From positions 2,939,001 to 3,003,000 of the forward strand of contig JARUPZ010000009.1 of NCBI GenBank assembly GCA_031213475.1: 64,000 nucleotides of DNA, read 5' to 3'. The DNA is from Nereocystis luetkeana. Lineage: Eukaryota > Sar > Phaeophyceae > Laminariales > Laminariaceae. Below, one piece after another: positions 10,166 through 57,400 of the stretch (the first letter of the stretch is position 1; every line of letters starts with the position of its first letter). The position numbers and the translations under genes were made by a program. The notes under the pieces are model-generated. The model did not search any database, was not told the DNA's origin, and worked only from the letters and a program-made list of their open reading frames with translations.

Positions 10166-11149
10166 TTAAGTAGTTACCTGGTATATATTAAGTCGTTCTG
10201 ACGAGTGAGAGTGAGGCATTCGCCTTCGATTTCGAAACGTTTGTGTTGAATATAGGCTGGACTCCAGACGCCTTCGCCTTCCTGGTTTCGCGCTTGCTTG
10301 CTCGACCGCTTTCCTCGATGGTCACGCTCGCCGGGCTCCGACGAGTGTTCTCCCGTGCGCGCATCTGGGGGTCTCGCGCCACGGACAAGCGCTGCGACCC
10401 GAACCCGAAGGATCTGTGCTAGGGCGAGGAGACGCGGAGGTTCTATATCCCTCGGTCCTGGAGATTCGCTTCGCCAAATATTGCTCCGCAAGAGCTTATT
10501 GCGAGATACTTGATCTTAGCGTTTTTCTCGCCGGGATTCGATCCTCTCGATCGTGCTATAAATAACGCTTTCTCTTGATTCCCTCGCTTTGCGGGCTGCC
10601 ATCGGCCTGTCCGACCCCCTCGGTCTTGAGTTGTCAGTGGCTGCCTTTCCTTGCCGGTCTCTTTTCGTCGGTCGACTACGCGCGCCTTCTTGGGGCATCC
10701 CGCTGTTGTTGGTACCATGTCGTTGGATATCCCGGTAATATCGTGTTTCCGGGTATAATTCGGCGCGTCATTTGTTTTCGCCGGTCAAGTTTAATGACGG
10801 TTGTTGGAGACTATTAATTCGGCCGAGTGCTGTGAGTTCGATAAGAAAAACCAACTCAATGAATCGGAGGATATCATAGATGAGGTCGTACGTGCTCCGA
10901 CTGTCTACTGCTGCAAGGTCTGTTTTCTGGCGGCGCATTGAGATACGGTTAGTATTACAGCAACAGTAGTACAGTAGTTCAGAGGCGTTCTACTTCGAAT
11001 ATGTACGAAGAAAAACCAATCGTGTCTGACGTATCACGCAGCTTCCATAGTTGAGTTTCAACCACGAAGTCGGTCGTACTCACAGCAGACGTTTCTCACT
11101 TTGACAAGAGCATTTCCAGATGCATCTACTAAAGAAATGGGATATGGTC
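10166..11149. other. No gene recognised
   Basis: Unassigned. A tRNA-like string (GGATTCGATCC near 10535) lacks a matching fold and is not called. Confidence 0.45.
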
Positions 11150-11610
11150 CCGCTTTGAAGATACGATCCTTCGTACCAGGTATATGTATACGTATGTTCG
11201 TCAAAATTTCGTACTGTCGCCAACTTTTCTCTTCGTACGAGAGCTTTTCGGCGAAACAGCAAGTACTCGGACACATAAAGCCCGGCCGGACACATTGGTC
11301 GAGGTCTCGGCGCGATCCGTGCACTCTGGAGCGCGTGACAGGCGATCAATTGTTTCTCCCCGGCGGGACTGGATTAGACGATATCCCTGGTTTCGATACG
11401 AGAGGTCTTTTTTTGTACGTACGTACGTGTCGATAAATTGTCGTCTGTTTTCTTCACACCAGGTACACAACAGATAATCGCAGATCCCATCGTTCCAACG
11501 CTGCCGCATACTCGCCGTGCGTGTGCGACACACCCATATGCGCAGTACTGCTGTGGCTCGTTGTGTTTGTCGGAGCCTGCCGTCCGTATTTCACCATCTA
11601 CAGATTCTGC
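11150..11610 (+). repeat. Dispersed repeat, copy 1 (partner 21050-21510)
   Basis: Shared blocks in order: CGCGATCCGTGCAC, TGGAGCGCGTG, CGTACGTACGTG, ACGCTGCCGC, CGCCGTGCGTG and CGGAGCCTGC. The copy at 21050-21510 lies in GT10 intron 2. Identity is interrupted by indels. Confidence 0.75.
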
Positions 11611-11989
11611 CTTTCCAGGTACCACATTTTGTTTCATACTTTTTTACGTACAAACCCAGGCTGTCGTACCTGTATCATCATCACCTGTCTCCCTGCTGCT
11701 TCTTCTGCCGCCGCGGGTTGCTGTGTGTGATCCAACAATGCCACTGCTCCAGCTGTGCTCTGCACACTACGCCAACAGCAGAAGTAGGCAGCATAATATA
11801 CGCATGCAATTTCAGTACTACAGCAGTAACGTTTGTTGTTGTCATACTAAATATTTATGTTCGAGACAATACTGTAGGTACTTCGTACTTTCTCGCAGTA
11901 TAAGGTCTCCATGTATCTCGAGGTTCTGTACTGATGCGGGTACTGCAAGTTTCGTCCGTTAATTTTATTAGAGTGTGATCAATGCTGCA

Positions 11990-13100
11990 CATTGTCGGAT
12001 GGCAAGGGATATAATAATAATATTAATAGTGTTCGAACTGCGAGTACTCGCAGTACTGAAATACTCTCAATATGCTCAGTAATGCTTGGAGTACGAAGTA
12101 TACTTCGACAGTCTGTGCACCGTGTCGACATTTCTCAGACCCGTTGTTCGGCACAAATCACTCGCAGATGGTTCGACGAGTGGGAGTTGGAGCGAATTAC
12201 TTTCGCTGGGGACAACTCGAATACTTGAGGCACTGGCAGTATTTCGGGAATATGTACCGCGAGGAGTACGTACTGCGAGTACTCTCAGTATCTCGATGTT
12301 CTCCATATTTTACCCTGAGCGCCAAGAAACATATATTTTGCGGGAATAGAGTTTGTACGTTGTGCTGGATGTTACTCAGCCGGTCACCAAGTATCATGTC
12401 GCAACCACGACCTCGCGCAACTTTTGTACTTACGCGTAAGCCGCAAGCATTGAATTAATCGCCGCGAGTCATCCCTGTTCAGGATCAATATCCACTTACT
12501 ACCCGCATACCCTCTATATTATTGTTGTAGTATAATACCTGGTAGTAACGACCCCACACTATTTCCACAAACAGCGGTACATTGTCTGCCCTCAAAAATG
12601 TGTGTGTGTTCTTCACGTTAATAATGATGGGTGGATGCAGTTAGTGGAGTTCTAAACTGGCAGGTGTGCAGGTATTTCACACGAAGATAATTATTTCTTG
12701 AGCCACTCCACTAGGCACGTCCCGGAGGGGAACCTTGGAAGATAATATTTTCGCCTCTACCATTTTCTGGTAAAACGCGCGTCAAGTTGTTTCAGCGAGC
12801 AATACTGGAGGTATTCGAGGGTTCGAGGCTGCTTGCTTCCACTGCGAGTATTCGCAGTATGTCGGGGTTCTGTGTTGCTGTGGATAGTGCTGCGTGTGCT
12901 TCACGGTTGTCCAATCTGAGTATGTCGGGGTTCATACTGATACTACTGCCCACGTTAGCAGTATTCTGCGGTTGTTCTGTATTGCCGATCGATATCAGGT
13001 ATCAGGTGTTCGATACTGCTCATACTCGCAGCATCTCGGGTTATTTACTGCGATTACCGCCTGCACTCATGTTGAAGTATTTCATGGTGCGATAAAGCGC
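11990..13100. repeat. Cluster of palindromic GAGTACTC/GAGTATTC motifs
   Basis: GCGAGTACTCGCAGTACT near 12039 and relatives (GCGAGTACTCTCAGTATC, GCGAGTATTCGCAGTATG, CAGTACTG-like forms) recur irregularly. No gene frame is convincing here. CTG/CAG-rich triplets follow at 13165-13250. Confidence 0.6.
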
Positions 13101-13339
13101 GTACAGTGCGCGTTCTGTACTTGCAGTAATTTAGGCGGATACTGCAAGTTATTGTCCGCTGCAATGCTGCTACTGCTGCTGCTAGCAACCAACCGCAGCA
13201 GCAGCAATGCCAGCTACTACTGCTGCTGTTGCTGCTGCTGTTTTTGCTGTGGTGACTGAGTGACTGGTAAATAAGTTTGAGTGAGAGGGTTCTGCCCCTC
13301 ACCAGTGGTCAACTACGAATACAATCTGACGGAGGCGCA

Positions 13340-13800: not shown

Positions 13801-14330
13801 TCTTCCATCAAGGCCTTTAAGGAACCACCTCATAAGGCAAACGGCTCATCGGTGGAGCGCCCTTCGTGCTCTACAGTAGTACTACAGGCTAGACCACAGG
13901 GTCGATCGTCTTGATTCTTTTTTTGACAGCTTTTGGGCGGGATACCTATGCAGCAGCGCCTCGAAGACGAGGGGCCTCATTAAAATAGTTAATACCTGGT
14001 AGTTTCGTAAAACGTATATTGTAGTAATACGACCAAACACCGTAAAACACGGAAGATAATACACCCCCTTAAAAGATTTTCAGACCCGGTTCCGTGCAAA
14101 ACATGGGACACACTCAACGAAAATTGTGGCTTCGGAAAGATTTCGTCGATATGGTTAAGCGCATAGACACGACGCTCGTCGTACTCAGTACGCCCTCCCG
14201 GTTGTCGAGAAACCCACCACTCAACATTGGTCTGAGGCGGGCGGGTGTTGTGGTGCAGGTTACACGGGTATGCTTGGTACTAATACTGGAACACACCTGG
14301 TATAGGTCTTTTGGTCCTGATCACTGTCGA

Positions 14331-14426: not shown

Positions 14427-15055
14427 CCCTTACAGTACCATGCATGTTTTTGTTTTTGTTTTTGCGCTCACGCAGTGTGGGTATTATTTTTCTTGACAAG
14501 ATACTTTGAAGAAGAAAAAACATTCCGCCGTGTGTGGTCTCGGTGTAATTTGTTGGCAGCAATTATTTCAAGCTGTGTAGTGCGTGCTACATGTAACGAT
14601 AATACGTACGTAGCGTGCGGACCTTATTTTGGGCTCTTTTTTTTGTGGTCGAAAATCGCTCGCGCTCGCTTTTTTCGTTCTTTTGTGTAGCTCATATATT
14701 ATGAAACAGGCATGAACGTCAGCCGCCGACTCTAGAGTCAACTAACTGAAGGCTCCGTTGTGTCCGTCGATCGCCCACAACGGCGACTCCACCAGATCTC
14801 TTGTGGGGATTCGAAAAATAGAACAAAACAAACACATCGGAATTTTCGACGCAAAATATATACCTGGTATATATATATATATACCGGCGTGCGGCTCATC
14901 TTGACACCCCTCAAGGTGCTCCTTTGTTTTCTTCATACGTGTATACCAGATGTACATACTCCATGAGACCATGAATAACCCGAGATGGAAGTATTATACA
15001 CAGCTTGCCAATATGAGTTCGGACGAAATCCTCAATATCACAGCTGTTTAATTTT
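14427..15055. other. No gene recognised
   Basis: Unassigned; contains a (TA)n stretch with TACCTGGTA at 14871. Confidence 0.5.
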
Positions 15056-18792: not shown

Positions 18793-18851
18793 TCAGCAGC
18801 AGCAGTAGTAGTAGTAGTAGTAGTAGTAGGAGTAGTAGTAGTAGTAGGATC

Positions 18852-18919
<68 letters not shown>

Positions 18920-18942
18920 GAGGAGGAGGAGGAGGAGGAGTG

Positions 18943-18999
<57 letters not shown>

Positions 19000-19015
19000 A
19001 TAATAGTAGTAGTAA

Positions 19016-19092
<77 letters not shown>
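18793..19092. repeat. (GTA)n microsatellite, about 300 bp
   Basis: Nearly pure GTA repeats with short interruptions (GGA block at 18920-18940, scattered AAT). The long poly-Val, poly-Leu and poly-Tyr frames over it are artefacts. Confidence 0.97.
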
Positions 19093-19093
<1 letters not shown>

Positions 19094-23000: not shown

Positions 23001-26000
23001 GCGTGTAGATATATATATATTGTATTTAGAAAAGTTTCTTAATTATCATGAATCGGGGGTTGTTGCCTATATAGAAAGAACTATCACGCGGGACCATAGT
23101 AGACAGGACCAAAATAATGTTGGTAAAAATAGCGAACTATATAGTTTTTTGTTTGTTAATGTAGCCCCCCGTAATAGGCACTCGTAGTGGCTGGTATATC
23201 CTAGGGTTTCCAGGGATCCCAAATTTCCATTCTTCCGAGTGGCAATGGGGTTGAATCTTGCACCCCCCCCCCCCCCCCCCCCCCTGTCCGTCAGTCACAC
23301 GTGCGAGGCGTGTTTCGAGCACCCCCGCCTCATCTGGAACAACAATTTTTTCAACCACAAGCAGATCATGGCTAGAAAGCTGAGGTCGCTGGTTTCAGCA
23401 GAACGTCGAGGCGCGGTTTGAAGATGGTGCCCCTCTGTATCTGTGTAGGGCGCTGTGTCGTCGAAATGGAAATATATTTCTTCATGAAATGGAGAGACGG
23501 CTACTGTTACGGCAGCGGAGATGATTTTTTGTCTACGTCCTTCTGCTTCAGGCGCTCAGAACCACTCGGCAGTGGTGGCCACTCCACTCACGTCTTTGCA
23601 GTCTTACGGGTACGCTGGGGCCAACAAATATTTCACACCTTTTGACGGATCATGATATATCCATCTACTGCCGTAGATAATCTAGTCCCTCACCCGCCGT
23701 TGCGAGAGGTTGTGCGGGATCTGCCTTCTAGGGCAGACCCAACCAAAACCACATTTGCTAGATAGATTGTGCAGATTATACCGGTCCCACCCGGCAACAT
23801 GAGCGAACGTTCATACAAAAGACCGTCAGTAGATATACCTTGTGTGACAGATCTAGACCACGTGAGAATCGATCATCTGTTCGAGGTGTGAATTATGCTC
23901 ATGTTCCGTTCTTCAGTACAGCTTCAGGGCCACTTTCTTTCCCTATGGTAGCCCAAACACCGTAGTCAAAATATTGGTATCACACCCCCCCTCCCGCTAC
24001 CACAGCCCTAACCTCCCCGTCCCCCACTCCCCGAAAAAAAGCGGATATTAAAAGAGTCACAAATATAGGCATACCCGGTATTGGTTTTGGGCCACGACGA
24101 TAATGTTGTGCTTGATACAGACACACCTTTTATGGCCTAGAATGTAAGGGCCCATCTTATTGAGGACTTTTGTTTTTTCGAATTTTTTATGTGATTTTTT
24201 TCGAATTTAAGTTGCATCTGATTGGCCGAAAAGTGAGTCACAGAGCAGGCGTTCTCAAGGCAAATTAGAAAATTTCAGTTAGAGTGAAAAGTACATTGGG
24301 ACTTTTTTCGTGTGATTTTTTTAGTTTCAATTTGGAATTTGAGAGTTCATCGGCCTCGATGTAGCATGTGCATCGTGGGTCAACACTTTCGTTGGAGTCT
24401 TGGGTCATTCTGGGGGGTTTCGGTGACCAAGATAGAGGCGATAAAACGCGAACCTCAACGAGCGGCGACCGGAGCAATAGCCCACCCAAGACACACTGAG
24501 AGTGTTAGTTTCCTATCCTGCGCCATTAAAAAGAAAAAGAGGCTGGCGGCGGCGCGCACGCGACAACGCAAACCTTCGCTCTCTTTTACGCTCGTCGCTG
24601 TCTGTCGACTGGGCGTTGTGTGACGCGGTGCGTTCTTCCAGGTTATTCCGAAATTTTGTTTGTTTGACTATTAGTGCGCCGTTCCCCCATAGGACACAAA
24701 CACGGTTTTGTTTTATAATCAAATTTGTGTCCATTAAATCAAACAATTATTTCCAAATAGCGTCCCCCGTTAAGATAGGCTTTAAGGGCCCTGAGGGGGC
24801 TTGCATGAATTTTCAAACAGACCCATATGCCTACGGCCAGGGCGGTCAGTATGTAGACCGATTCCCCCCCCCCCCCCCCCCCCCCCGCCCATCACAGGCT
24901 CCCCCCTGATATGCCTGACAGAGCGAGCATTGAGGTCCGCACAGGGGTTGGTTTTGCGATTATATTTTTAGCCCTCGATTTTCTTTCTTGCCAGAAGGGG
25001 AAAGGTTAACGTTACCAATGTACTTCGAAGTATACCGCGCGCAACGAGTTGTGTCCCGTCAGTGGTCTGTTCGAGCGAGAGCTTTCCGAAAATATGTTGT
25101 TTCGACTCTTTTTGCTGGCACTCTTATCGCTGGGGCCCGATCGCACCGTCAGTGCTCTTTATGGTGTGCAACACCTGGTGGTGGGCCTACTGCTGGTATC
25201 ATAGTCACCGGAGGAAACGATGGGATAGGAGTGAGTGCCCTGACCTTTAGTGCGCACAGTCGCAGGAAGGAGGTCGATTCTCAAAACAAAAACCTCGCTT
25301 CTATGTGTTTTGCTGACCCCCCTACCCCTCCCCCCCCCCCCCCGCCTGTTTTTCGTACTCAGCGCATGTCCAACTTTGATCTGACCATGACGTACCAGAG
25401 GAGCAGCGATGTTCCCCTAAGCTACGTGACCGGCAAAGACGCCTCCCAGTACTTCGATTCGCCCAAGTTCACATTCGAGGTGTGTATGGTCTTCTACCGT
25501 GTACATTATGGTCCCACCTCCCCTCCCTTTCCCTTTCCCTCCCCACCCTCCCCCGTCCCCTTTCCCTCCCCCATCCCCTCCTTTCTCTCTCCGCCCCCTC
25601 CCCTCTCCCTCCCCTCCCCTTCCGCCTCTCTTCTCTGCCTCTCTTCGATCTTCACCTTTCCCCTCTCCCCTCCCTTCTCCCACTCCGGTCTACGCCCCCG
25701 TCCCTTGCGTCCTTCCTCACTCCCCCCTCCTTCCCTCTATATTGCCCCCCCCCCCCCCCCCGTCTCGAAAGGGATGTGTGGTCAATGGTCAAATGACTAA
25801 GGCAAGCAACAAATGAGTACGCCCCCCCCCCCCCCCCCCTTCCGCGCCCTTCCCGTAACCACCCTTCCCATAACCACGGCGTTATGTTGGCAGATCGGTT
25901 TCGTACGGCCGACGCTGTGGCGGGTAGCTACTTGCACGTGCTAACGTATTGTAGTTGCAGGTACGGTAGTATTGTGATATCCTGTTGAATTTTTTGTTTC

Positions 26001-29000
26001 ATCAAAATGTCGAGCGTTCGATGTTCTCGTGTCGAACGTGGTTATTGTCCTCCATACCCTGTCGCATCCCCCGTGTTTTTCATGCTGACACTGCGCGAAA
26101 GCTTCGATGTTTCAAAGATCGAAACACTATCGTGTTCGATTTTTTGTTCCTGTGTCGGTACAGTATCGAGCTCGATTCTCGTTCGATATCGAACATCCAA
26201 GACGAACATAGGTATGTCACACCCCTGATTGTTTTTGCTGCCCCTGATAATCCACATTCGGCGAATTTACTAATGGCCTAAACAAGGGTACCGTTGGTGA
26301 TATTTAACAGTCTACGGGCAACGTGAGCTCCCAGAGGAACGGGAGGGACGGGAGGGAAGGACCATGATGCCCCCCCCCCCCCCCCCGTGCCTGTGCTGTA
26401 CGACTCCCGGCATCTTCGCTCGGACACCAACCATTGTACCACCCCCCAATCACGCAGTTAACGTTGCTCCAATCGCCACTTGTTGTCTTCAGTTCAGTAC
26501 CCCTCTGATTTCCCAAAGAAGGTTATCACCCTTTTAGGACTTCAGTCTCGTTTTGGGGACAAAATACTTGGAATTCGAGTGGTTTTGTCCCCAAATCGGG
26601 GCTGTGGTTCTAGAAGGGTTGACCGATTGGTGTGATTCGGGTGCTGCATAGGTACGAGTGTGTCGGTGTTGTTTCTTTCGGCTCACGTTTTTCTTTTCAC
26701 GTGTCTATTTCTCCTTTCTCTTCTTCTTGACGTATGTCTGGTTCGTTTCGACCGTTCTGATCCAGAGTACCTGAACCAAACATTTCCTATATTCCTCTGG
26801 TACAGTATTCCTTGTTCTTCAGTTTTGATCCTGTGTGCCTGTTTGTTTGTTTTCGTGTTCAACTAGGTCGAGATCGGTTTCGGTTTCGTTTGTCGGGTGT
26901 GCGTTTTGATCTGTTGTGTTTCGTGATGTTCTTGTTTTTTTTTCAGTTGGGTTCATTTCGTTCTGTTCCTTTTTGCTTGGTTTCATTTCGTTTCGCTTGG
27001 TTTGGCTTGGTTTTCGTTGGGCGCGGTTTGGTTTGGTTTCGTTTCACCTTTCGTCTGGTTTCGTTTGGTTCCACGATTTGTTTGGTTTCGTTTGGTTTCG
27101 ATCCAGTTTGCCTTTTTTCTTTTCATTTCATGTCGTTTCGTTTCGTTTGCTTCGTCTTCGCGCATTTTGCCCTTTCACTCCGTGTTTTCCAAAGGCGAAG
27201 GACGGGTACGGGTCTCCAGACGCCATAGCGGCGTTCGTGTCCAACTGCGACATGGCAGGCGCCTCGAAGCGGTTTGAGTACATTCAGCAGCTCATGAATT
27301 ACTCCACGGTGCATTCCTTCGGCGCCTGCCTGCACAACATGTTCGTGCTAGCTATATAGATATTTATGTATGCCTAGCTGGGCTTGACCTGTGCAAACAT
27401 ACCAGGACACGGTAATTTAGACCGGTGACAGACGGCGGTCTACTATTTGTGTACTATTTTTCGTGTGGGAGCTCCTAAAGATGTGAGGCGTTCTATGGAC
27501 TCAATGTATTGCAGTAGTTCGAGAGTGAGAGTTCTCCAAGTTATGAGGCGGTCTACTCTTAGGGCGAATGCGCTATTTTTATTCTGAGAGCTCCTAAAGT
27601 TATGAGGCATCCTAATGTTATGAGGCATCCCTAAGTTATGAGGTGGTCTGCGAATAGGCTCAGTCCACAAATTTTATTGTGGGAGCCCTTAAAGTTATCA
27701 GGCGGTCTACAGTCATGTACTGCTATAGTTCTAGTGTGGGGGTTTATAAGGTTATTAGGCGTTCTATAGGCTTCATGTGTTCGTTCTAGCGTTCTTGATT
27801 TTATTATGCGGTCTTGTAATAGGCTTACAGTACTAGTATTAGGGGGGGAGTTCTTAAAGTCGCGGAGGACGACGCCCAAAACTGCCATCTCTTTGACCTT
27901 CGTGATGCAGCCTTAGCGCAACACCAAGTTTTTGTTCCGCTTGGAGGTTAGACTACGCGTTAGCTCTCTCCCATCCCAGGATTGATGTACTTGCTATAAC
28001 CCCGGTTCCTTCCGGGCGTTTTTTTTGTTCACCGCACGTCGGGTGTATGTGCTTGTATTTGTGTGTTGTACGCATTATGTGCTGCTGTACGCATTGCGTG
28101 AGCTGTTTGTGCTGTATGTGCTGTCGTGCACATACCTGGTATTTTGTATCACGGTTCGCGCCTCATTTGCTTGATGTACTGTAGTTCGGTGTGTGCTGTA
28201 TTTGGCGCAATAGCTAGATGTATTGCATTGGCCGTGTGTGCTGTATGCCCTGCACGTACTGTATGTACTACAGTACATCTGGATGTATTGTATCAGCCGT
28301 ATGTGCTGTATGTAATGTATGCACTGTACCATGCGTACTGTATGTGATGCATGCAGCATGTGCTGCACGTGTATTATGTACTATTGTGCTTGGTATATGC
28401 TGTGTTGTACTTCGTGCTTCGTGGGTGCTGTATGCGCTCTGTGTGCTTTGCGTGATGCATGTACTTTAGGCGCCACTACTGTAAGTACTGTATGCGTCGC
28501 ATTTGCTATACGTACTGTATTCAATGTGTGTGTACATTTGCCGTATGTATTGTTTGCACTGTATGTGCTCCATGCGCTGAACCCACTGTTTTTATTGGGC
28601 TCGTTTCTGTTTTGGATGCAAGGCCCCTGCATTACTGGTTGTGCTGTGAGGAATGTGCGCACGGCATGCGTGTACGTGCTGTACAGATTGCATGTGTCGA
28701 TTGTTTTGACCATTTCCCTACCGTTGTCGTCATTTTGTTCGCCAACAGGGAAGAACCGGCAGTGGCGGAGGGCCCCAACGTGACGGGACGTCGTCATAAC
28801 AAGGTCGAAATTCTCAGGCGTTACAAGTTCCTCTTGGCATTCGAGAACAACAACGAGTGAGTCGACAAAGTTTCACACGTCGGAACCACAATCGATCCCC
28901 ACGTCATGCTCTGTATATTTCAGCGCAGAGATAAGCCTGCATCTGTATGACCGACCGGTGTTTTTGTCAAGCTCTTGTTGCCGGACTCGGGCCCTAACAT

Positions 29001-32000: not shown

Positions 32001-33532
32001 ATCTCAAAATATGATGATTTCTCGAATCTCTAGTCTCTACATTATAAACATCCAAACCACGAAGACGAAATAAAAGACGACAAACCAACAGCAAGCTTAT
32101 GCTGAAAGGTTATCAATTCCATCGAAATTCCATTTGTCTGCATTGCCAGGTTAAGAGGGCATCATATCGACTCAACGGCTCTCCTCAGTCTGAATGGCTC
32201 CTAGAGATAAATCCTCCCAGATCGAAAGTCATTAAAATATTCGTCAAGTCCGGCGAAGGCCAGAAAGCCTCGCTGCTGATTAACCTTGCCAAGTCCGCAC
32301 ACTCCGGCCGTATCATGACCTATCTATCTACAGATAGATCATCTACAGTAGTTCCTCTCCCGCCGTTGTGAGAGGTTGCGCAGGATCTGCATCGTACAGA
32401 TCCAATCCAGATACATGTGCTATTATTAATGGAGTAGCATGCAGATTCTACCGGGCCCACCCGGCAACATAGCTAAATCATACCAGGTACAAGATTTAAC
32501 GCGAATATATCTGCCATGTGTGACAGATCTAGATCAATACCTGTGGGAATCAATGACCTGTAGATGATATGTTGGAGGTGTGGACGTCTGCACGTTGCTC
32601 CCCGGTCGGTACACGGGCAAAGGCCAAGCCTCCGCGGAAAACGGCCATCTCTCAAAATTTGGTGTCACACGTCGATGTGCTTCGTGATTTGGAGCACACG
32701 GCGGGTTTTACGGCCGATGCCTCGCTCCCCTCGCTATCCTCGAAAACTCTTATGCACCTCATACCGAAGCCCAGACATGCAACCCCCCACACACACCTGT
32801 CGCGAAGCCATTGGCTCCTTGATGTTGTCCGCCAGTGCTCTATAAGTACTCCCTGCGCTTCAGTGGTGGCTTAAAGCGTGACACATTTATGTTTCTCCGA
32901 AAACCCAGCATACGCTCGCACCTGCACACATAACAGCCCCACCAGAAACCGAACCTCCTATTGTATAGGTGGCCTTGCTGCTTACCTGGTATAGCAGAGG
33001 TTTCGCTTGCAAACGGTACCAACGTGGCGACGACAGCCCAATCTATCTACCAGTATACCACATAATATCTCCTAGGTTGGCTGTGTACCGCACAGATCCT
33101 GCGTAGCACCTCCTAACAGCAAGTTAGGATGTAGACGATTTATTGTAGATGATCTACAATCTGCCGCGTGTATCCTATGGCGGTGGGGGAGGGGGGGGCG
33201 AGGGGAGCAGTTGTGTCTGGGACCAAAAATGAAAATGATAGGTCGATTTTTGTTTTTTTTCGCTCGCCCCTGGGTCAGAGACTGAGGATAACCTGTTCGT
33301 GGCTAATGGTTTTTCCCTTCCCCCTCCTCGCCTCTACTCCCGCGCCTTCGTATAGGCGTCAGATTTCTCTGGACCGAAAGCCCTCGCCGAACACCTGAAG
33401 TTTCTCGCGGGAAATGAAGACGCTTACGAGTCGTATTTCGCGTGGAGAGACGACCTCGAGGAGGAAGAACTCTTCCAAGAGGTAGACTATATCACGTCAT
33501 ACGACCAGAAGGCATGCTGCATATTCGTTTAG
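20011..33532 (+). CDS. GT10 family alpha-1,3-fucosyltransferase-like gene, seven exons, 5' end not found
   Basis: The exons are 20011-20094, 20740-20895, 25363-25479, 27195-27340, 28749-28856, 30140-30254 and 33356-33532, and they join in one open frame of 300 codons plus stop. Seen in order: a CxxxC segment, GVLFHAP, LNLEP, the NFDLTMTYQRSSDVP block, AFVSNC, HSFGACLHN, YKFLLAFEN (about residues 193-201), DYVTEK (207-212), LPIYWGA, and DFSGPKALAEHL with YESYFAWR. These are the conserved blocks of GT10 enzymes, which transfer fucose from GDP-fucose to glycans, normally as type II Golgi membrane proteins. The FEN and DYVTEK region is the alpha-1,3-FucT motif that binds donor. In a brown alga, N-glycan or fucoidan fucosylation are possible roles; the acceptor cannot be read from sequence. 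The product lacks the expected N-terminal anchor and stem, so upstream exons are missing. Introns are 645, 4467, 1715, 1408, 1283 and 3101 bp and rich in repeats. No promoter was recognised. Confidence 0.88.
20740..20895 (+). CDS. GT10 gene, second recognised exon
   Basis: Encodes 52 residues containing GVLFHAPTHDRIGPLPDKP and, further on, FVLLNLEP. This fits the GT10 pattern in which a buried 'advvFH' strand and an LP turn precede the acidic 'msmEsP' block. The acceptor is CTCCCGCAG at 20731-20739 and the donor is GAG|GTTTTA at 20896; both ends are phase 0. A 274-codon open frame from 20528 overlaps this exon in another frame and is a shadow. Confidence 0.85.
21050..21510 (+). repeat. Dispersed repeat, copy 2
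   Basis: See 11150-11610. The TACCAGGTA of copy 1 (11174) corresponds to a mutated TGCCGGATA here. Confidence 0.75.
22561..22648. mobile_element. Family M2 element, copy b
   Basis: CCCTTTTGAACCGCAGTCAG to GGGACTGCGGTTC, with the shared centre TTTAAATTTGAATGGTTTG. In GT10 intron 2. Confidence 0.85.
23080..23177. mobile_element. Family M1 element, copy 2
   Basis: GGACCATAGTAGACAGGACC at the left and a decayed inverse ending CCCCCGTAATAG at the right. In GT10 intron 2. Confidence 0.75.
23645..23895 (+). repeat. Repeat family Q, copy 2
   Basis: GCGAGAGGTTGTGCGGGATC, CCCACCCGGCAACATGAGC and GTGTGACAGATCTAGACC. It lacks a TACCWGGTA at the position where the 32318 copy has one. Confidence 0.75.
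25363..25479 (+). CDS. GT10 gene, third recognised exon
   Basis: Encodes 39 residues with NFDLTMTYQRSSDVPLSYV, the classic GT10 block ('fNltmtYrrdSDvp.pY'). The acceptor ends a strong C/T-rich tract (TTTTTCGTACTCAG, ending 25362) and the donor is GAG|GTGTGT at 25480. Phase 0 at both ends. It follows a 4.5-kb intron. Confidence 0.93.
25500..25770. repeat. Pyrimidine-rich tract
   Basis: About 270 bp of almost pure C/T on the + strand ending in a poly-C run, just downstream of GT10 exon 3 (donor 25480). Poly-Pro/Ser frames over it are artefacts. Confidence 0.9.
25755..25890 (+). repeat. Repeat shared with 7630-7795
   Basis: CCGTCTCGAAAGGGATG, GGTCAAATGACTAAGGCAAG, CAACAAATGA and a poly-C run, then GCGTTATGTTGG. 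Lies in GT10 intron 3. Confidence 0.65.
26525..26621. mobile_element. Family M2 element, copy c
   Basis: CACCCTTTTAGGACTTCAGT at the left and GCTGTGGTTCTAGAAGGGTT at the right, with TTTTGGGGACAAAA facing TTTTGTCCCCAAA. In GT10 intron 3. Confidence 0.88.
26880..27175. repeat. TTTCG/GGTTT-rich simple tract
   Basis: Repeated TTTCGTTTGGTT-like units ahead of GT10 exon 4, T/G-rich on the sense strand. Part of intron 3. Confidence 0.75.
27195..27340 (+). CDS. GT10 gene, fourth recognised exon
   Basis: Encodes 48 residues plus two bases of a split codon. AFVSNC, the R..YI..L stretch and HSFGACLHN match the GT10 'afvSNC...R..~v..L....vdsyG.C.~n' region. The acceptor is TTTTCCAAAG and the donor is AACAT|GTTCGT. 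The split codon AT+G (Met) is completed by the next exon, which fixes this donor over a nearby GTGCTA alternative at 27345. Confidence 0.93.
27470..27870. repeat. Degenerate tandem repeat in GT10 intron 4
   Basis: Units of roughly 60-75 bp built on GTGGGAGCTCCTAAAGTTAT and GAGGCGGTCTAC recur five to six times with drift. Confidence 0.75.
28030..28600. repeat. TGTACTGTATG-type degenerate repeat in GT10 intron 4
   Basis: Dozens of short units such as TGCTGTATGTGCTGTATGC and GTACTGTATGTG. Cys/Val/Tyr-rich frames over it are artefacts. Confidence 0.8.
28749..28856 (+). CDS. GT10 gene, fifth recognised exon (FEN motif)
   Basis: One base completes the split Met codon. Then come 35 residues ending YKFLLAFENNN, followed by two bases (GA) of a split Glu codon. 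YKF.LAFEN opens the alpha-1,3-fucosyltransferase motif. The acceptor is CGCCAACAG and the donor GA|GTGAGT is a near-perfect consensus. Reading through the donor would reach TGA within two codons. Confidence 0.95.
29099..29188. mobile_element. Family M2 element, copy d
   Basis: CCTTTTGGGGCCGCAGTCCC at the left and AACCGCGGTACTAAAAG at the right, with the centre TTGGAATTTGACTGG. In GT10 intron 5. Confidence 0.85.
29629..29741. mobile_element. Family M1 element, copy 3
   Basis: GGACCATAGTAAATAGGACC and its inverse, ending CCCCCGTAATA. In GT10 intron 5. Confidence 0.85.
30140..30254 (+). CDS. GT10 gene, sixth recognised exon (DYVTEK motif)
   Basis: Completes the Glu codon and adds 38 residues with DYVTEKVYNGLESGTLPIYW and GAENIDQFVPKGSVIK. 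This is the second half of the donor-binding alpha-1,3-FucT motif and the strand that follows it. The acceptor is TTTATCGTGCAG. The only donor keeping frame and family spacing with the next exon is AAG|GCAAGA, so the following intron is read as GC-AG. Confidence 0.94.
31128..31778 (+). other. 216-codon open frame inside GT10 intron 6, unrecognised
   Basis: Longest non-repetitive frame in the introns. It begins with a TTG codon over a poly-G run. No domain, signal peptide or family motif was recognised. Probably chance; listed because of its length. Confidence 0.12.
32318..32585 (+). repeat. Repeat family Q, copy 3
   Basis: GTGAGAGGTTGCGCAGGATC, GCCCACCCGGCAACATAGC and GTGTGACAGATCTAGATC. Carries TACCAGGTA at 32481-32489, absent from the copies at 23645 and 41863. 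Confidence 0.8.
33356..33532 (+). CDS. GT10 gene, last recognised exon
   Basis: Encodes 58 residues and a TAG stop at 33530-33532. DFSGPKALAEHL and YESYFAWR match the GT10 C-terminal helix region ('dF.spk.La.yl...n...Y..yf.W'). The acceptor is TTCGTATAG, phase 0. The tail is acidic and ends with a CC pair near the C-terminus; GT10 proteins often end in a Cys-rich segment. A possible donor AAGAG|GTAGAC at 33482 leaves open a spliced alternative end, but no further exon was recognised. Confidence 0.85.
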   Translation, partial: ASDFSGPKALAEHLKFLAGNEDAYESYFAWRDDLEEEELFQEVDYITSYDQKACCIFV

Positions 33533-33624: not shown

Positions 33625-34735
33625 GTACAAGGCGCTTCGCTTCGCGATCGGCCTACGCCGCCCGCTACCCTCGCTAAAAAAATACATTACATCAAGTTAT
33701 TGTGCAAAGCAGACAGAGGTCCATGATTGATTATATAGTTTTTTTTGTGATCGTAGTTGCAAACTGGCGAATTGATAATGCCAAGAGTCCCGACGCCATG
33801 CTTCAGGAGGAAACTGCTCGGAAGCCACATACGCTTCGCGTCGCGGATGTCGTACGTACGTACATAACCCAGGTAGAGTGTTTATTTTGTCCTTTTGATA
33901 CCTGGTATGCTCTATTTCTGTGCTTGCATGTACGAAAGAGAAAGTACAGCACGCCTCAGCAGCACAGCAAAGACAACGAAAATGATTCCGGGAAATTCGG
34001 GAAGAAAAAATATCACCATCCACTCTCGTGTAATTATTGTCTGCCTGATTGGAACACCTTATACCCGGTCAAGAAGAAAAAAGTGGAAAAACTCGAACAG
34101 AAGAGGTTCTCTCTCAGCCTCGTACGCCGCCCGCCCCTCTCGCGGCCATCTCGCAGCCGATTTGGTCCGGGTAAAACTTTCCTCCCTCCCTGCCACAATG
34201 AGCCCCGTTGCCCGCCTCACGAGAAGCCCGGTGCTCACTGTGGCCCCTCGTTCGCCAGCTCGACAAAGTTAGTACTCAGAATGCGTCGCTCTCGCATTGA
34301 TTTTTAGTTTCGTCACAAAAATAAGCACCGCGTTATATTTTACACATCATACCGACCCTTATATACTCGTACATAGTATAACCGGAATCACAGCAGGAGG
34401 CCAGATAGAGGCAGTTCATGCTTCCCTTGTGTCTCGAGGCACACGCGACGCCTAGTCACGAAGCCGGCGACCGCGCTCCTTGCACCCCTCCCTCTACCGG
34501 CCACCACCCGCTGACACCCGCGACGGTGCCGCGCTCGCCCGCGGTGCCGTACTCGGAGTACACGCAAGCACACGAGACGTAAGAAGAATAAAGGGGAGAA
34601 GGACTGAAAGTGCAAAGAGAAATGGATAAAACAAGGAACCGCTGGAAAAGCCCGCCAAGTGATAAAAGGAGGCGATTCCCAAGTGGGAGCTCCGAGAGGC
34701 CAGGGATGTACCAACCGAGCACGCTCAGAGAGTGA
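33625..34735. mobile_element. Dispersed 1-kb repeat, copy 2
   Basis: Partner of 9225-10165 in the same orientation, beginning about 90 bp after the GT10 stop codon. It carries a TACCTGGTA at 33899-33907 where copy 1 reads GATATG (9430-9435), with a further small indel beside it. Confidence 0.75.
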
Positions 34736-36930: not shown

Positions 36931-37739
36931 GAATTTCATTATGCGCTCTGCTTACAATGTGAACGCTCTGTGCCGTTTGTGCGATCGCGTCCTGCAAGAT
37001 TGACGGCTCTGACGGGTATCACACCACCAGGAAACACTTGTAGACCATCTAGATCGTATATTGATTAATAGATGATCCATAAAATCCTATACATATCGCC
37101 GGTATATCGTGTTGTGTAAAGGGTAGTACCGTACAAACCGTCCCACACACACTCAGCAGGCAGTTGGCGCCCATAGGTTTCCCTTGAATGATGTTGCGTA
37201 GAAGCTGTGTTTTTCGTTTGTCCGCTGTAATATGTTGCATAGGAGGTGTGCCATGCAGATCCCCAAGCGGGCAAACGGTATATGTTTGGTACACGCAATA
37301 GACGACAACTTTACTTTACGTCCCTTGAGAGAACCACACAACTGCACCCACTCATGTTTGGAGAGTCGTGTACTCACTAGTTTTTAGTTTCTTGCTTCTT
37401 GTGGGATCGGTTTTGCTGCGATAGGGAAGGTTAAAGGGCTGAACGAAGAGCTTGCCCTCGTAAGTACACTGTGTCTGGCGGAAACGGGGCGATGAGCGAA
37501 ACAAGTACTAACGAACACGTTGTGTCTGGCCGTGTGTGGAGATAAGCCCACCTTTCCACGTACGAGTTGTTGGAGTCGACGCGATTGGTAGGTTTTGTTT
37601 TGATTTTGCAGTGGTTTGTGTGTGTGTGTTTTTTTCTTTTCGTCGTGGAGATATGAATATGTTGACCTCTAGCTGGCGAAAGCGATGCTGGAGACGAGTT
37701 GACCTATCAATAGCTGTTGAGAGCGATGCAGAAACCCTT

Positions 37740-37785
37740 GATATATTGGGAGGTGAAAGCACCCCCCCCCCCCCCCCCCCCCCCT
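37740..37785. repeat. Poly-C run (24 bp)
   Basis: Uninterrupted C-run at about 37761-37784. Its partner in the right arm is the G-run near 57629-57648. Confidence 0.95.
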
Positions 37786-37855
37786 TCCCTCTAGCGTTCG
37801 GACGTGTGCGACGTGCAGAGCATCATTTTGTTTTCACGGTGTTATATTATGTATC

Positions 37856-38158
37856 ATGCATGTAGATGCTGATTTTAATACCCCTGCCTTCTACGGCTGG
37901 CTAAGGCGATGCCGGAGATATTTTCGCTTCCCTGTGGTTACTGTATTCGATGAAATGCGGCGGGCTGTCCTCGAGTTGTGCGGGCGGCAGAACACGCTCC
38001 CCAGCGAGTTGGTTGTGCAAGCCGAAGTGATACGACGCCCGAACCGTTCCGTCCTAGGGTCTGTAGGGCGTGTGACCAAAGGGCGCCCGAATACGAAGGC
38101 TGGCAACGTTCGTCACACCGTGGTAATTATCCGGTTTAGGACCGCTTGCATCATTTGA
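37856..38158 (+). other. Arm-conserved open frame
   Basis: A 100-codon frame containing MRRAVLELCGRQ and IRRPNRSV. In the right arm the reverse complement of about 57270-57440 keeps these words in the same frame (MRRAVLELCGRQ, LVVQA, IRRPNRSV) but has stops at both sides. It may be a relic exon of the duplicated element; no family recognised. Confidence 0.25.
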
Positions 38159-38799
38159 CTTGTGCCTGAAGTGGAACGTTTCTTGCCGGAAGAGATGCAT
38201 GGCCTGCATGATCTGTCCACGTTTCGTTTTGCGAGTGCGACGGTCTATTGGGTGTGCATGATCTCCATCTTCAAAACCCAATCCACGGATATGTACCTGG
38301 TACGTTCAAGGTTCAGTGCGGATCATGACCCGTTGGGGTTTTATATATTTTGTTTTCTTTGTGTTCTCCAGGTTAAAGCATGCTGTTGGAAAAACGACGC
38401 GCCTCAAGTGTGATCATTCCGCACATTGCTCTATGCGATGATCTGTGACTTATATATACGTTTCATCACCCCGCTGGTCTGTACGATCCAGGTCACGGGC
38501 GGATCATTTTCTGAACTGTCCGGTTTGGGGAATGTATTCCTTACGAAGGCCGTAGATTTTTTCGGGAGTCCACCCTCCTCCCCCGACCTTGCCCCTTGAA
38601 GCTGTCATCCATTTGCAAGTCCGCCTCACAAGCGGTTCTTCGTAGGACTCAGCTCACCCTTCATGCGAATCGCCCAACACCTCACGGCGCATTTCGCTTG
38701 TGCAAGGAATGTCTGCCTGGTCGGTTAAATCCCGACGTGCTTCGTCCTGGAAATTAAGGAATGTGAGGGCCTAGAGTCATACCACCGAGACTAGGCATT

Positions 38800-39060
38800 A
38801 TACCTCCCCATCCCCCCACCCATGGTCTATGGGATATGGTCATATGACTTCGGCCATGCATGATAATGAGTACTCCCCCCACCCCCACCCATAGTCATAG
38901 ACTGCGGCCTCACATGATATCGAGTACCCTCCCCCTCCCCCCCCCTCTCCGGCATTGTAGGGACCGCGAAGGTCTGTGGATAACGATTCCGGCCGTGCAT
39001 GATATTGATTGAGTACCCGACCCCCAACCCCCAACCCCGCCCGCCTACAGTCATGGGCGT
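38800..39060. repeat. C-rich, CCCCACCC-rich tract, left arm
   Basis: Two to three diverged units containing CATGATAATGAGTACTCCCC and CATAGTCATAGAC. The G-rich inverse lies at 56220-56420. Confidence 0.75.
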
Positions 39061-40729
39061 TGGACGCATCAGACGCCATAGATTTTGTTCGTCAATTCTG
39101 GGTTCCCGGCAGACGTAGAAATGTTGACGGGGGACCCCTACGAGTACGGTTATGTTTTAACACGGCATGTTGGGGTGTGGCAGTATAGGACACTTGCGTA
39201 CGGGCTGAAAAACGCGGATGCAAGAGAGATGTACGGCTCGGTTTCTCACGTTGTGAAACGGGCGGGTTCTGCGCTTACTTCGATTCGGTATGGCGGCTCT
39301 CGAACTTCTTTGTTTCCTCCTCCCAAATCTCAGCCTGGAATTTGTGAGCGCTTGTCTTACTTGAGAATGGATGGATGAGTTTCGCGCACTGCTGTACCAG
39401 GTAGGCGTTATGGAGATTGAGATTTCCGCGTTATGCTGACGAGGGTTTTGTTTCAAACCGCGTGGTAAGCCCGACTTCATTTTTGTTTGTGAAGTTGAGT
39501 TTTTGCACGTGGGAGTAGCTAGGATGGATTCGAATTTGGGACGGGTATAGGGCCTATTGTATGTGGCGCCATACTATTGCTAGATTATCGGAGCACTTGG
39601 GATGTACGTCGGGTCTATGCGATATGGGTCTAGCTATTTTGTTTTCTTGACCTATGCCGCGTCGAGTCTATGCATGGTGTGCCCTAGCCAGGATAGGGAA
39701 GCCTTGTGGAAAAACCTCGAGGCCATAAGTAGCACGGGGTAGGACAGCAAGGCACATCCGGTACATGCGGGTCTACTTGATGTGGCGCTACCCAAGATAT
39801 CAATACGGTAACGGCCCGTCTATCGTAGTAACGGTACGCACGAGCCAACAATACCAGCACTCTGCTATGGCGGCAATCGGCACTAATCCGCATACTGTCA
39901 CACTGGTTAATCCCATCTGTGCCAAGCGATGACACTATAGCGGGCAGCCGGCACTACTCGGCTAGCACTACTGCACCGAGGCATGTTTGGATAAATATAT
40001 ATGTATACCTGGTATATATAGCGGGTGGATGGCCGAGTTATTTTCCCACTGATACCGAGTCGACAAGCGGTGCTAGCTCGGATTCTGGGCAGAATCGGGC
40101 CGATGAGAGGTACTAGCTAGCAGAGCTACGTATAGTTTGGACAAGTATCGGGTCTACATGTGGAACTACGGTAGGAAATACCCTGCGAAAGGTACAAAAC
40201 CAAATATTTATGATCGGGTCTAAACGGGCCGTTAATAGCTAGGATCGCAAAACATACTTTAGAATATACGACAACTAAAATTCCAAATCATACTGGAAAA
40301 TATCGGGTCTATATGCGGAGCTAGCTTGGAAACGACCCAATTGTTTTGATAATGTTGCGTTGACAAGATCGGGTCAGATCCGTCTGACGCTACAGTAGCT
40401 AAGGTAGCAACGAGTTTTGAGCAATGTTGGGTGTGAGTTACGTAGCTGTGTAGGGTACGGGAGGGCCTTTTTGGTCAAATGTCGAGTTTACAATGGTGCT
40501 GCAGTAAAGCTAGGATAATTTTTTTTGTTTAAACTACTTCGGGCCCGTGGAGCTGCAATATAGCTACTAATATTATTGCAACGCGTTCTGGACAGCAGCA
40601 CCGGTGTCAAACATCATGTGGCGTGAGGCAGGACAGCAACCGATATACCTGGTATTTGGTTTAGACAAGCATCGGGTGCGTCCTGGTGGTCCTACAGTAG
40701 CTACCAAAGCAACCGTGTGGCGCGACGTG

Positions 40730-41862: not shown

Positions 41863-42095
41863 TGCAGATTATGGTATATCTATCTAAAGCAGATCATCTA
41901 GTTCCTGACTTCAAGTTGTGAGAGGTTGCGCAATATCCGCTTAGTGCAGCTCCAACCTAGGAACTATGCGTTGTATTACACCCATCCCACCCGGCAACAT
42001 GATTCAAATCATTCAACATCGGGAACATATCTGCCTTGCGAGTTCTAGAGTAGATCATGACGGGAATCGATGTAATCTGTCCGAGGTATGGGAGC
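41863..42095 (+). repeat. Repeat family Q, copy 4
   Basis: GTGAGAGGTTGCGCAATATC, CCCACCCGGCAACATGATTC and GATCATGACGGGAATCGATG. Reads AAATCATTCAAC at the site of the TACCAGGTA in copy 3. Confidence 0.78.
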
Positions 42096-43570: not shown

Positions 43571-44517
43571 CTCTTCACCGCGCGCTTACACTATACCCTA
43601 GCTGTTGATGTACACGAGGCCGAATTACGAGGTTTTTGTGTACGAAAACTCACTCGTAGCCCGTGCATGGAGCCGACAACAGCTACTGATGTACCTGATA
43701 CTATATAGCCAGTTATCGTGCGATAATTTACCAAAATAATTGTACGGGCACAAAGCTGGGCTCAGCTACAGCAGCCCAGCAGTAAGACTCGAACACAGCA
43801 AGTGACAAACCAAACAAAGCTAAGAGGGCATCGCCTTAGCATGCTAGTAAACTACAGAAGCAGGCGGGGATGTTCCACAATTCTCATCTGGTTAAGCAGC
43901 ATAATATTGTCTGATATATCCAACGCATATCTCTTACCATCAAATATAGAGTATATATTACACCCCACTCCCTTCCCTAACGTCTGTAAGCGTCCTGCTC
44001 AGACAAAGCTATCACCTGCATCCCATGCCCGTATTCGCCCAGCTCTGTCACTACTAGAATGGAAGAGAAAGGGGCAGGGGACGGAGCTGAGAGATACACG
44101 TTTCTACGTCAGATAGAATATTGCCATGTATCTCCGATCTCCGTGTGGATATGTATTCTCAACCTTCATGCAGGCGTACCTGGTACGAGGCACCGCGGAT
44201 CAACTCACAAAACAAACTGTATACGCGTACGTACCTGGTACCTGACACGCGTATGCGCTCACCTAAAATCACCAGAACTTATACTGCTTTAAAATACTGC
44301 TTGCGCTCGTGCATAGGCAGGCAGTCAACGCAAGGCATGATACCTGCAACAGAATACCTGCAATACGCAGAGAACAGCGATTCGCGTCACTAGCATCGGG
44401 GGCAGGCCAACAAAGTCTGTTTTAATCTGGTGCAACAAGAGGGAAGCCTTCCCCACAGCGTCCGCGTCCATGATCGTCCCACCACCACCTTGCCGCTCCA
44501 CTCCCCCTACCAACCAG

Positions 44518-44680: not shown

Positions 44681-45009
44681 GCTGGGTCCGTTGTTGCCGT
44701 TGTGGCTGCTGCTGCTCCCTGGTCTCATTCGTTCTCCCTTTGCACCTTCACCTCACTTATCACCTCATCACTCTGCACCTTTTATGTATGTTCTTGCCTA
44801 ATTGTTGTTATATCGTCCCAGGTATGTTGATATGGTATGATGGTACAGTTTGATATACTATTAATAAATGGAAAAACACACAGCGTGTGATACCTGGTAT
44901 GGTATATTGGTGGTATGGTATGATGGTACGGTGTGGTGGATGTATTATATGGCTGAATTTGCCTGGTGGTAAGGTATGCTTCAGTATATGAGGTCCATAA
45001 GGGTCGAAT

Positions 45010-54020: not shown

Positions 54021-54080
<60 letters not shown>

Positions 54081-54085: not shown

Positions 54086-54177
54086 CAGTCACAAGAAACC
54101 TCCAGTTCTCCCAATATATGGTCCTAAACCGCTCCCGACGTTGACATGTACACCGCGCGAATCAATAGCGGACTCAC

Positions 54178-54470
54178 ATACAAGCAGTCAGGGCCAACTT
54201 TTGGATTCAACGGAGCCCTGCGCTTTGAGCTACGCGAACTAGCCTCGCTGGGGGAACAATCGCTTGCGCCACAGAGTTCCCCACGTTTACCTAGGGGTTC
54301 TGTGGCGAAAATTCCAAACTTATCTGTCAGTCTGTCTCCCCTAGAAGGAAACTCCAATCCTCCATACAAGCAGTCTGGGCCAACGTTCGGATTCAACGGA
54401 GCCCTGTGTCTTGAGCTACGCGTTCCAGCCCCACCCGCGGGACAATCGCTTGTAGACAATCGTTTGTGCC
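54178..54470. repeat. 185-bp direct duplication
   Basis: AAGCAGTCAGGGCCAACTTT, GGATTCAACGGAGCCCTG and GACAATCGCTTG-type sequence occur twice. Both strands stay open across it, but no protein family is recognisable. Confidence 0.85.
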
Positions 54471-57400
54471 GGAGTCGGTACGAGCAGCGAAATATTTCGT
54501 GAATTGGCTACAGTATACACCGGCAGGAAGTACTCGATTTTGCCGCGTACTCGACAAATATGATCCCGATGTTTGAAAAACAATTACCAGTTATGTCGGT
54601 TGCTGCCCTGCCTGACGCCACATGTTTGACGCGGTGATGCTGTCTAGAGCACGTTGCAATACTAGCTATGTTAAAGCTCCATTTACGGACCCGAGATTGT
54701 CTAAATGCTTCGCTAGCTTAGATATACGGCAACTGCATTGTAGACCCGACACGACATTGACCAAAACATATCTCGTATCCTACAGAGCTACGTAACACAC
54801 AGGCAAAATTGCTCAAACTTCGTTGCTACCCTAGATTCTGTACAAGCGTCACATACATCTGGCACGATATTGTCGACGCAAAATTATCCAAACAATTAGG
54901 CCATTTCCAAGCTACCTCCACCTATAGGCCCAATCTTGTCCAGTATGATTTGGAAGCTTAGCTCTAAAATTACCAAACGTATGTTTGGCGATCCTAGCTA
55001 GCTCCTGTAGATCCGACCTCGTCGAGAATTACGTGGTTTCCTAACTACTGTAGCTCCAATTGCAAGCTTCGCGGTCCTTTCTACGGTAAACTCCATACAT
55101 AAACTTGATATGTGTCCAAACTGTGTGTGGCTCGCCAAGCTAGCGTCCCTTATTGGCCCGATCCTGCCCAGTATCCGAGCTAGCACCACCTGTTCACTCG
55201 ATATCAGTGCAACACTCTGTCATCCACCCGATATAGGTTCAAACATGTTTCGATGCAGTAGTGTTCCCCACATACTGCCGGCTGCCCGCTACAGCGTCTG
55301 TACAATCGCTTGGCACAGATGGGATAAACCAAGTGTGGCGGTGTGCGGAGTAGTGCCGAATGCCGCTACAGCAGAGTGCCGGTATTTTTGGCTGGTGCAT
55401 GCCGGCAACACGATAGACGGATCATATCCGCATTGGTATCTTAGGTTTCACCACGTGAAGTAGACCCGCAAGTACTGTCTACGCCTTACTGTCCTACCCC
55501 GTGCTACTTATAGACTCAAAAAATGTCCAGACGGCGTCGCTATCCTGGCTAAGCGCACGTCATAAACCCGATGCGGCATTGACCAAAAATGCTGTATAGC
55601 TAGCCCCATATAGAATAGACCCGATGTGCGCCCAAAATGCTCTCCTGTTGTAGTAATAGTTTGGCGCTACATACAGTGGGCTCCATACCTGTCCATGACT
55701 TGAATTCATCCTAGCTATCACAAGCGCGAAAAAACATCTCTACAGACAAAAATGACGCCGGGCTTACCACGCGTTTTTTTTAGCTAAACTCCTCCTCAAC
55801 ATAACGCGGAAATCCTACAAACCTCCGGAACGCCTACCTGGTACAGCAGTACAGGAAACCCATATATCCACCCCAAGAAAGACGAGCGCTCACAAAAGCC
55901 GGGCTGAGATTTCGAAAAAGAAAAACAAGAAATTCGGGGGGCGCCATACTGAATTGAAGTAAGCGCAGACTTCGCCCGTTTCGTAAAGTAGAAAACCTAG
56001 CCTTTACCCTCCTTGGGTCCCTGTTTCTTAGCCCGTACGTAGGTGTCCTATACTGCCACTTCTCGACATGCCCGGCCAAAAACATAACCATACTCGTAGG
56101 GTCCCCCGTCAACATTTCTGCGCCTGCCGGTAACCAAAACAGACCAACAAACCCTATGGCATCTGATGCATCCAACGCCCTCGTGTGTAGACAAGTTTTC
56201 CTCACGAGACGGGCGGGGTTGCGGGGGGGGGGGGGGGGGTACTCATTATCACGCATAGCCATAGTCGTATGATCATAGACCTTCGCAGTCCCTACAATGC
56301 CGGGGGGGGGGGGGGGTGTAGAGAGTGAGGGGGGGGGGGGGGGGGGGTGTACTCATTATCGGGCATGACCGTAGTTGTATGACCCTACACCATAGACCAT
56401 GGGTGGGGGGGCAGGGGGGAGTATCATGCAAGGCCTCAGTCATACGACCATAGGCCCTGGCATCCCTACGATGCCGGGACGGGGCATATCGGGGGTTAAC
56501 CGACCAGGCAGACATCCCTTGCATCAAGCACGAAGCGCCGTGAGGTGTTGGGCGAGTCACATGAAGGGTCAGCTGCATCCTACTAAAAACCACTCGTAAA
56601 GCGGACTTTTTTACATATGGATGACAGCTTCAATGAGTCAAAGTGGGGAAAGGGGGGACTCCGCAAATTGCTACGGTCATAATCAAGCATACATTCCCCA
56701 CATCGGACTGTTCAGAACATGATCTGCCTGTGACGTTCATAATACAGATCAGCGGGGTGATCAAACGTATGTATAAGTCATGCACAACCTAAAGATCCTT
56801 TCGCAGAGCACTGTGTACAAGTGTACAACGATCACACATATCCCGCGTCTTTTTTCCTAACAGCATGTTTCCACCTTAATCGCGCAAACAAAATATATAC
56901 CAGGTATAAATCCCCACGTCATGATCTGCACTGACAACCTTGAACGTACCAGGTGCAGATCAGTGGACTGGGACGTGATTATGCAGATCAAGCACACCCG
57001 ACAGATCATCGCACACGGAAACGAAACGTGGACAGATCATGCATGTCGCGCATCTCTTACGGCAGCAAATGTCCCACTTCGAGCACAAATCATATGATGC
57101 AGGCGTCGCGACGCATCGTTTCCACCTCGTATCCAGAGGGAGAATGCTTTCTCGAACAGCATAAATCAAGCGTTCCAAGCAGGGTATGAACTCTCGATGT
57201 ACCCGGGTACTTGCTCGGGTACTTACCAGGATAGTTACCATGGTATGACGAAGTTACCAGGTTATCCGGGTACCCTTAGGTCACACACCCTACAGACCCT
57301 TGGACGGAACGGTTCGGGCGTCGTATCGCTCCGGCTTGCACCACCAACTCGCAGGGGAGCTTGTGCTGCCGCCCACACAACTCAAGCACAGCCCGCCGCA

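Follow-up and report, generated by a model that had tools for sequence, protein, structure and literature searches.

Introduction

The canonical footprint of the Sleeping Beauty transposon reads TAC(A/T)GTA, in which a C/G pair encloses a central mismatch that is repaired either way. Its origin has been described as a cut three bases inside the element, producing three-base overhangs to which the footprints are identical (PMC7827188). The footprint of Minos is given as 6 bp in all (PMC10992017), and the empty sites described for Stowaway elements and Osmar5 in grasses carry 1–4 bp of end sequence beside the TA duplication (PMC1925063). Elements of the Sailor (DD82E) family, which belongs to the IS630-Tc1-mariner group, have been reported from 23 stramenopile species, with GT or CC as the usual first bases of their ends and TATA as the predominant duplication (PMC8533490); for Ectocarpus, Mariner-Tc1 elements are described as abundant (PMC12477816). 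Here we compare these systems with TACCWGGTA (W being A or T), a nine-base palindrome repeated in a 64-kb stretch of the Nereocystis luetkeana genome (assembly GCA_031213475.1, contig JARUPZ010000009.1, positions 2,939,001 to 3,003,000 of the forward strand). This stretch is hereafter called the window, and all the evidence comes from this one window of one genome. We propose, with a probability of roughly 0.55, that a TA-targeting cut-and-paste transposon of the IS630-Tc1-mariner type leaves TACCWGGTA as its excision footprint; both ends of this element would read CC(A/T)GG inwards from the TA.

The likeness to the Sleeping Beauty system extends to the TA on both sides, the palindromic arms, a W centre such as mismatched overhangs would give and a TA target in an AT-rich palindromic context; however, Sleeping Beauty leaves three inner bases, whereas TACCWGGTA has five (CCWGG). 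With Minos it would share a long footprint of the Tc1 type made of end bases plus TA, but Minos leaves four end bases of another sequence, as compared with five plus TA here. Stowaway and Osmar5 differ in leaving several footprints per locus, while TACCWGGTA would be one uniform footprint found at many loci. Finally, the sequence shared by both flanks of all 18 sites described below is TA alone, in contrast to the TATA of Sailor; at site 10175, for example, GTTA precedes and TATA follows the inner bases.

Results

TACCWGGTA occurs in 18 exact copies between positions 10175 and 56906, as compared with 0.36 expected (maximum 3) from 100 dinucleotide-preserving shuffles and 0.4 expected under an order-3 Markov model. 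A preliminary description of the window, made from the sequence alone, had arrived at the same count over the same range, and its expectation of about 0.5 is correct under equal base frequencies. When all 256 nine-base odd palindromes are pooled, 244 occurrences are seen against 231 expected; there is therefore no general palindrome excess. By far the largest excess among the 256 is that of TACC-N-GGTA (19 versus 0.77), the next palindromes being CTAC-N-GTAG (9 versus 1.27) and TGAA-N-TTCA (4 versus 0.5). The equal excess of many other 9-bp palindromes, which the preliminary description had named as a refutation, is thus not seen in the window, though CTAC-N-GTAG is also raised.

The word has sharp limits. 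The centre of TACC-N-GGTA is W in 18 copies and S in one (0.3 expected), and copies with a W centre that deviate at one position (16 versus 10.7 expected) or at two positions (120 versus 117) are few over background. Outside the full word, neither CCWGG (102 versus 121 expected) nor ACCWGGT (5 versus 6.6) is enriched; both outer TAs are therefore part of the unit.

Read on the forward strand, the central base is T in 14 copies and A in four. The former, TACCTGGTA, lie at 10175..10183, 12536..12544, 13993..14001, 14861..14869 (in a (TA)n tract), 28133..28141, 32983..32991, 33899..33907, 38294..38302, 40006..40014 (in TA-rich DNA), 40646..40654, 44177..44185, 44232..44240 (55 bp from the preceding site), 44891..44899 and 55835..55843; the latter, TACCAGGTA, lie at 11174..11182, 32481..32489, 39395..39403 and 56898..56906. 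Sites 28133, which lies between stretches matching a fucosyltransferase profile, and 32983 are possibly intronic. The density amounts to about one site per 3.6 kb, with no regional clustering within the window (largest gap 13.3 kb, P = 0.28). The flanks, compared over 30 bases on each side, are unrelated among sites, except for the duplicated pair 39395/55835 and, in part, two sites in TA-rich DNA, and the AT content within 100 bp of the sites is not significantly above that around other TAs (P = 0.12). The three fucosyltransferase-profile stretches are free of sites, which is only a weak test of exon avoidance. The remark in the preliminary description that no element of this form is known agrees with a whole-word full-text literature search, which found no paper with the word in either form in the library searched; this is weak evidence, as sequences are seldom searchable text.

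The most direct indication of how the word arose comes from old duplications within the window (68–97% identity among 45 of 56 pairs). Each TA-N5-TA word (217 found, those at most 120 bp from a window end being excluded) was aligned, together with 120 bp on each side, against the rest of the window at E up to 1e-6, both complete and minus seven bases, and was scored as fitting better without them when their removal gained at least 8 bits. A paralogue within the window spans eight of the 18 motif sites and 75 control words. Four of the eight motif sites fit better minus the seven bases, as compared with six of the 75 controls (Fisher P = 0.006); when the pair 39395/55835 is counted once and one control with the same indel as site 33899 is dropped, the figures become 4/7 and 5/74 (P = 0.002). 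This is what empty relatives with one TA and none of the inner bases would give, as expected of an excision footprint, although two of the four cases (33899 and 40006) are untidy. No spanning paralogue was found in the window for sites 10175, 11174, 12536, 13993, 14861, 28133, 32983, 44177, 44232 and 44891.

Two relatives of site 32481 lack the word. The first (23695..23860, + strand) reads CATACAAAAG at 23.8 kb where the site reads CATA[CCAGGTA]CAAG, and the alignment scores 86.0 bits minus 7 bp versus 73.4 bits with them; the second (41986..42038, + strand; ATCATTCAAC) also aligns with a 7-bp gap, the target there reading TT. Site 33899, TTTTGATA[CCTGGTA]TG, corresponds to uninterrupted TTTTGATATG in a relative at about 9.4 kb (9377..9493, + strand), and the duplicate of site 56898 (38222..38418, − strand) clearly lacks the word, the local score rising from 109 for the full sequence to 116 minus 7 bp and 119 minus 9 bp. 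The 23.8-kb relative of 32481 has a single TA, as have the relatives of 33899 and 56898. For site 40006 the duplicate at about 55.2 kb (55127..55349, − strand) scores 139 bits without the word and 126 with it.

At the four other sites the paralogue also carries the word, either exact or with one change. Site 38294 has an occupied duplicate with one mismatch at 56947..56955 (168 bits with the word, 143 without), and site 40646 has another at 54585..54593. Sites 39395 (184 bits with, 154 without) and 55835 (178 with, 148 without) are inverted duplicates of each other and share one ancestral site. Three sites accordingly predate duplications that are now about 72–77% identical, and others are private to one copy. 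If absence means that the unit was not yet inserted, this suggests that some events are older and others younger than the duplications, and the coexistence of shared and private sites would point to repeated events over a long time. Taken together, TACCWGGTA probably behaves as an inserted unit.

A second line of evidence concerns the DNA into which the unit would have been inserted. After removal of CCWGGTA, the targets of 17 sites (55835 being dropped as the duplicate of 39395) were compared with those of 199 control TA-N5-TA words. They are AT-rich and symmetrical, and on either side the base that flanks the TA tends to be A: WWA occupies 12 of the 34 half-sites (3.3 expected), and seven of the 17 targets have an ATAT core, which is found at 11% of all TAs. 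The score for an A-Y-A half-site, calculated over three bases on each side of the TA, is 1.76 for the sites and 1.17 for the controls (P = 0.0001), and remains 1.57 for the 14 sites left when three in (TA)n DNA are omitted (P = 0.01). The published target preference of ZB is ATATATAT, and the same source describes Sleeping Beauty and Bari as having very similar ones (PMC7913693); an AT-rich palindromic target like ATATATAT is what we find. The context is of the kind that Tc1/mariner-type transposases prefer.

Other short TA-flanked words, namely TACWGTA, TAGCTA and TACGTA, are likewise enriched in the window and were considered as footprints of other elements. TACWGTA, which has the form of the Sleeping Beauty footprint, occurs 30 times (10.5 expected, pooled) and shows no target preference relative to all TAs (P = 0.78). 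The same holds for TAGCTA (P = 0.69), while TACGTA gives a weak signal (P = 0.02).

Discussion

The mechanism that we propose is an addition to the preliminary description, which offered none. An element inserting into AT-rich DNA would do so at a TA, which would thereby be duplicated. At its departure the transposase would cut with a 5-nt stagger, leaving an overhang CCWGG on each donor side. These overhangs could anneal through four C:G pairs, leaving A:A or T:T mismatched in the centre, and repair of the mismatch to A:T or T:A would yield TA-CCWGG-TA. The former presence of the element, the stagger, the annealing and the repair are all steps that we infer. The excess of the word, its exact limits, its W centre, the better fit of some paralogues without it, its sharing across some old duplications and the target preference are direct observations, and the footprint model would jointly explain the exactness, the palindrome, the W centre, the two TAs and the target preference. 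The proposed footprint exceeds known ones in length and uniformity and resembles them in kind; it is unproven.

Were this explanation true, an overrepresented palindrome liable to be classed as a binding site by motif finders would in truth be a scar, and the density of the word, its decay and its polymorphism between strains would serve as a direct clock for the hopping of the transposon in the lineage. The reported footprint size for TA-targeting transposases would grow from 2–4 to 5 bases, and the case would show how self-complementary ends can make the repair of excision uniform. Only tentatively, and with less than even confidence, would we go further and regard the word as the dense record of a transposase with a 5-nt stagger, self-complementary CCWGG overhangs and near-uniform repair, that is, of a rarely seen element that leaves many identical words resembling a regulatory motif, or, more boldly, regard CCWGG+TA as itself the inserted unit.

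Several observations weigh against the footprint explanation. One is that no source is visible. All TACCW...WGGTA pairs lying 30–12,000 bp apart (3,218 pairs) were compared over 24 end bases, and outside the inverted repeat at about 0.4–3.4 kb the best pair matches at no more than 15 of the 24; no intact donor was thus found among these pairs, and no element with ends matching the CCWGG inner bases was found in the 64 kb. The three best end pairs (23, 23 and 21 matches) belong to that long inverted repeat and do not read CCWGG. A scan for terminal inverted repeats among TA-bounded pairs up to 3 kb apart returned the inverted-repeat region and a few pairs with 13–14 of 16 matches, none of which starts with CCWGG, and a candidate end, TACCWGGATARYT (at 19287 and 57224), formed no pair. 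One-sided TACCWGG occurs 18 times against 12 expected. No transposase profile was matched in the parts of the window that were scanned, which comprise 20 of the 239 stop-to-stop frames of at least 90 residues, two forward frames of 1–15 kb, all six frames of 15–45 kb and four of the six of 45–60 kb, with 60–64 kb covered only through single stop-to-stop frames. It is odd that footprints should occur once per 3.6 kb when no element is visible, and such a density requires either long hopping of a few elements or their later loss.

The four paralogue comparisons also differ in quality. For site 32481, an alignment with a 5-bp gap to the 23.8-kb relative is also possible. The absence at 56898 spans 9 bp within a short TA run, equivalent to 7 bp plus one TA; that at 33899 is adjoined by an 18-bp indel; and that at 40006 is ambiguous, being embedded in a more extensive local difference. 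A paralogue without the word might also, in principle, have lost it. The A-Y-A form is the one known for Sleeping Beauty and was tested after the base frequencies had been seen. Moreover, the central base on the forward strand is biased towards T (14 of 18, two-sided binomial P = 0.03), where random repair of the mismatch would be expected to give A and T equally often. Comparison with the literature adds further difficulties. Tc1/mariner footprints are given as 2–4 bp (PMC7913693), and the 5 bp found here lie outside this range; the word is therefore offered as a possible variant and is assigned to no named family. Known footprints also tend to vary: Hsmar2 is reported to leave non-canonical ones (PMC3770610), and in rice only eight of 94 excisions, taken over all superfamilies, are given as perfect (PMC4423477). 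In one review the footprint of Sleeping Beauty appears as TAG(T/A)CTA (PMC2874221), which differs from the form given above. In the window, TAGWCTA is at background (3 versus 3.7 expected).

How else might the word have arisen? One unlikely alternative retains the insertion and dispenses with the element: some activity would add CCWGG together with a TA duplication directly at a TA, never a larger element, as might happen with two joined transposon end fragments or with an element reduced to its own ends. In its favour, the product is unusually uniform, and the evidence supports insertion at TA although intact elements are not seen and there are only 18 single ends versus 12 expected. On the other side, the chemistry already known for ordinary excision footprints would yield the same sequence, and we know of no mechanism for a direct micro-insertion of this kind. 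A protein-binding palindrome, recognized by a transcription factor, an insulator protein or a replication protein, kept by selection and lost in some paralogues, would account for the palindromic form and for the absence of overlap with recognized coding stretches. It might also accommodate the state of the six copies at the three shared sites of old duplications, four exact and two with one change. We nevertheless consider this improbable. Degenerate matches and the core would be expected above background for a transcription factor, but one-mismatch copies are few (16 versus 10.7) and ACCWGGT is not in excess; the paralogues fit better minus exactly the TA-bounded unit; and the AT-rich symmetrical outer context suits a TA target, while the flanks are not common to the sites. 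The recurrent insertion product preferred in the preliminary description is hence supported, though not proven, by the paralogues without the word and by the AT-rich symmetrical target, and its preference for insertion over a binding site is also backed by the few degenerate copies and the unenriched core.

Two further explanations were considered. The word could be left by a transposon with CCA/TGG ends, as in Mos1-like elements, if 3-nt overhangs were joined by a one-base overlap, in which case no 5-nt stagger would be needed. The fully filled product that this model predicts, TACCATGGTA, does occur at two sites (about 0.1 expected; pooled, 4 versus 0.2). However, the simple products TACCATA and TATGGTA are at background (9 versus 8.0), and a one-base A:A overlap should not, as we see it, yield the dominant product, which makes this origin quite improbable. 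A DNA-modification or restriction-like signature is suggested by the CCWGG core, which is the Dcm/EcoRII site, but the lack of enrichment of CCWGG outside the word (102 versus 121 expected) makes such an origin very improbable indeed. The excision footprint of a TA-targeting transposon remains the explanation that we favour.

Additional observations

On the forward strand, a profile search matched fucosyltransferase family 10 at 25366–25425 (below cut-off), 30138–30260 and 33338–33496, and these three stretches are possibly exons of one gene extending over about 8 kb. The last of them has an in-frame stop near its start, where the sequence resembles a splice acceptor.

The window otherwise contains many microsatellites, among them an (AGT)n tract of about 97 units at 18804–19093, and few long open frames; Rfam, at gathering scores, gave no matches. 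Nested direct and inverted repeats occupy 39–3845 (for example, 441–806 versus 992–1360, 96% identity). An open frame within them, at 1681–2703 on the reverse strand, has no Pfam match. Searches of two collections returned no relative of this frame from viral contigs and one from genome contigs, the latter with 45% identity, on a short contig catalogued as part of a bacterial metagenome-assembled genome. A long inverted duplication in three blocks, with about 72–75% identity, links 35259–40676 with 54565–60518.

With regard to the other TA-flanked words, TAGCTA is found at 21 sites (about 5.4 expected). The words TACTCGTA and TACGAGTA together occur 15 times (3.1 expected), several of them in repeats; the TA-CTCG-TA form resembles the Minos footprint. 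At 32344–32350, 137 bp from site 32481, TACAGTA faces plain CTAGT in its counterpart at about 23.7 kb; the two differ at a TA by the 5 bp CAGTA. Lastly, a dense nest of related palindromic words, comprising GTACCCGGGTAC, TACCAGGATAG, TACCATGGTA and TTACCAGGTTATCCGGGTACC, is located at 57199–57275.

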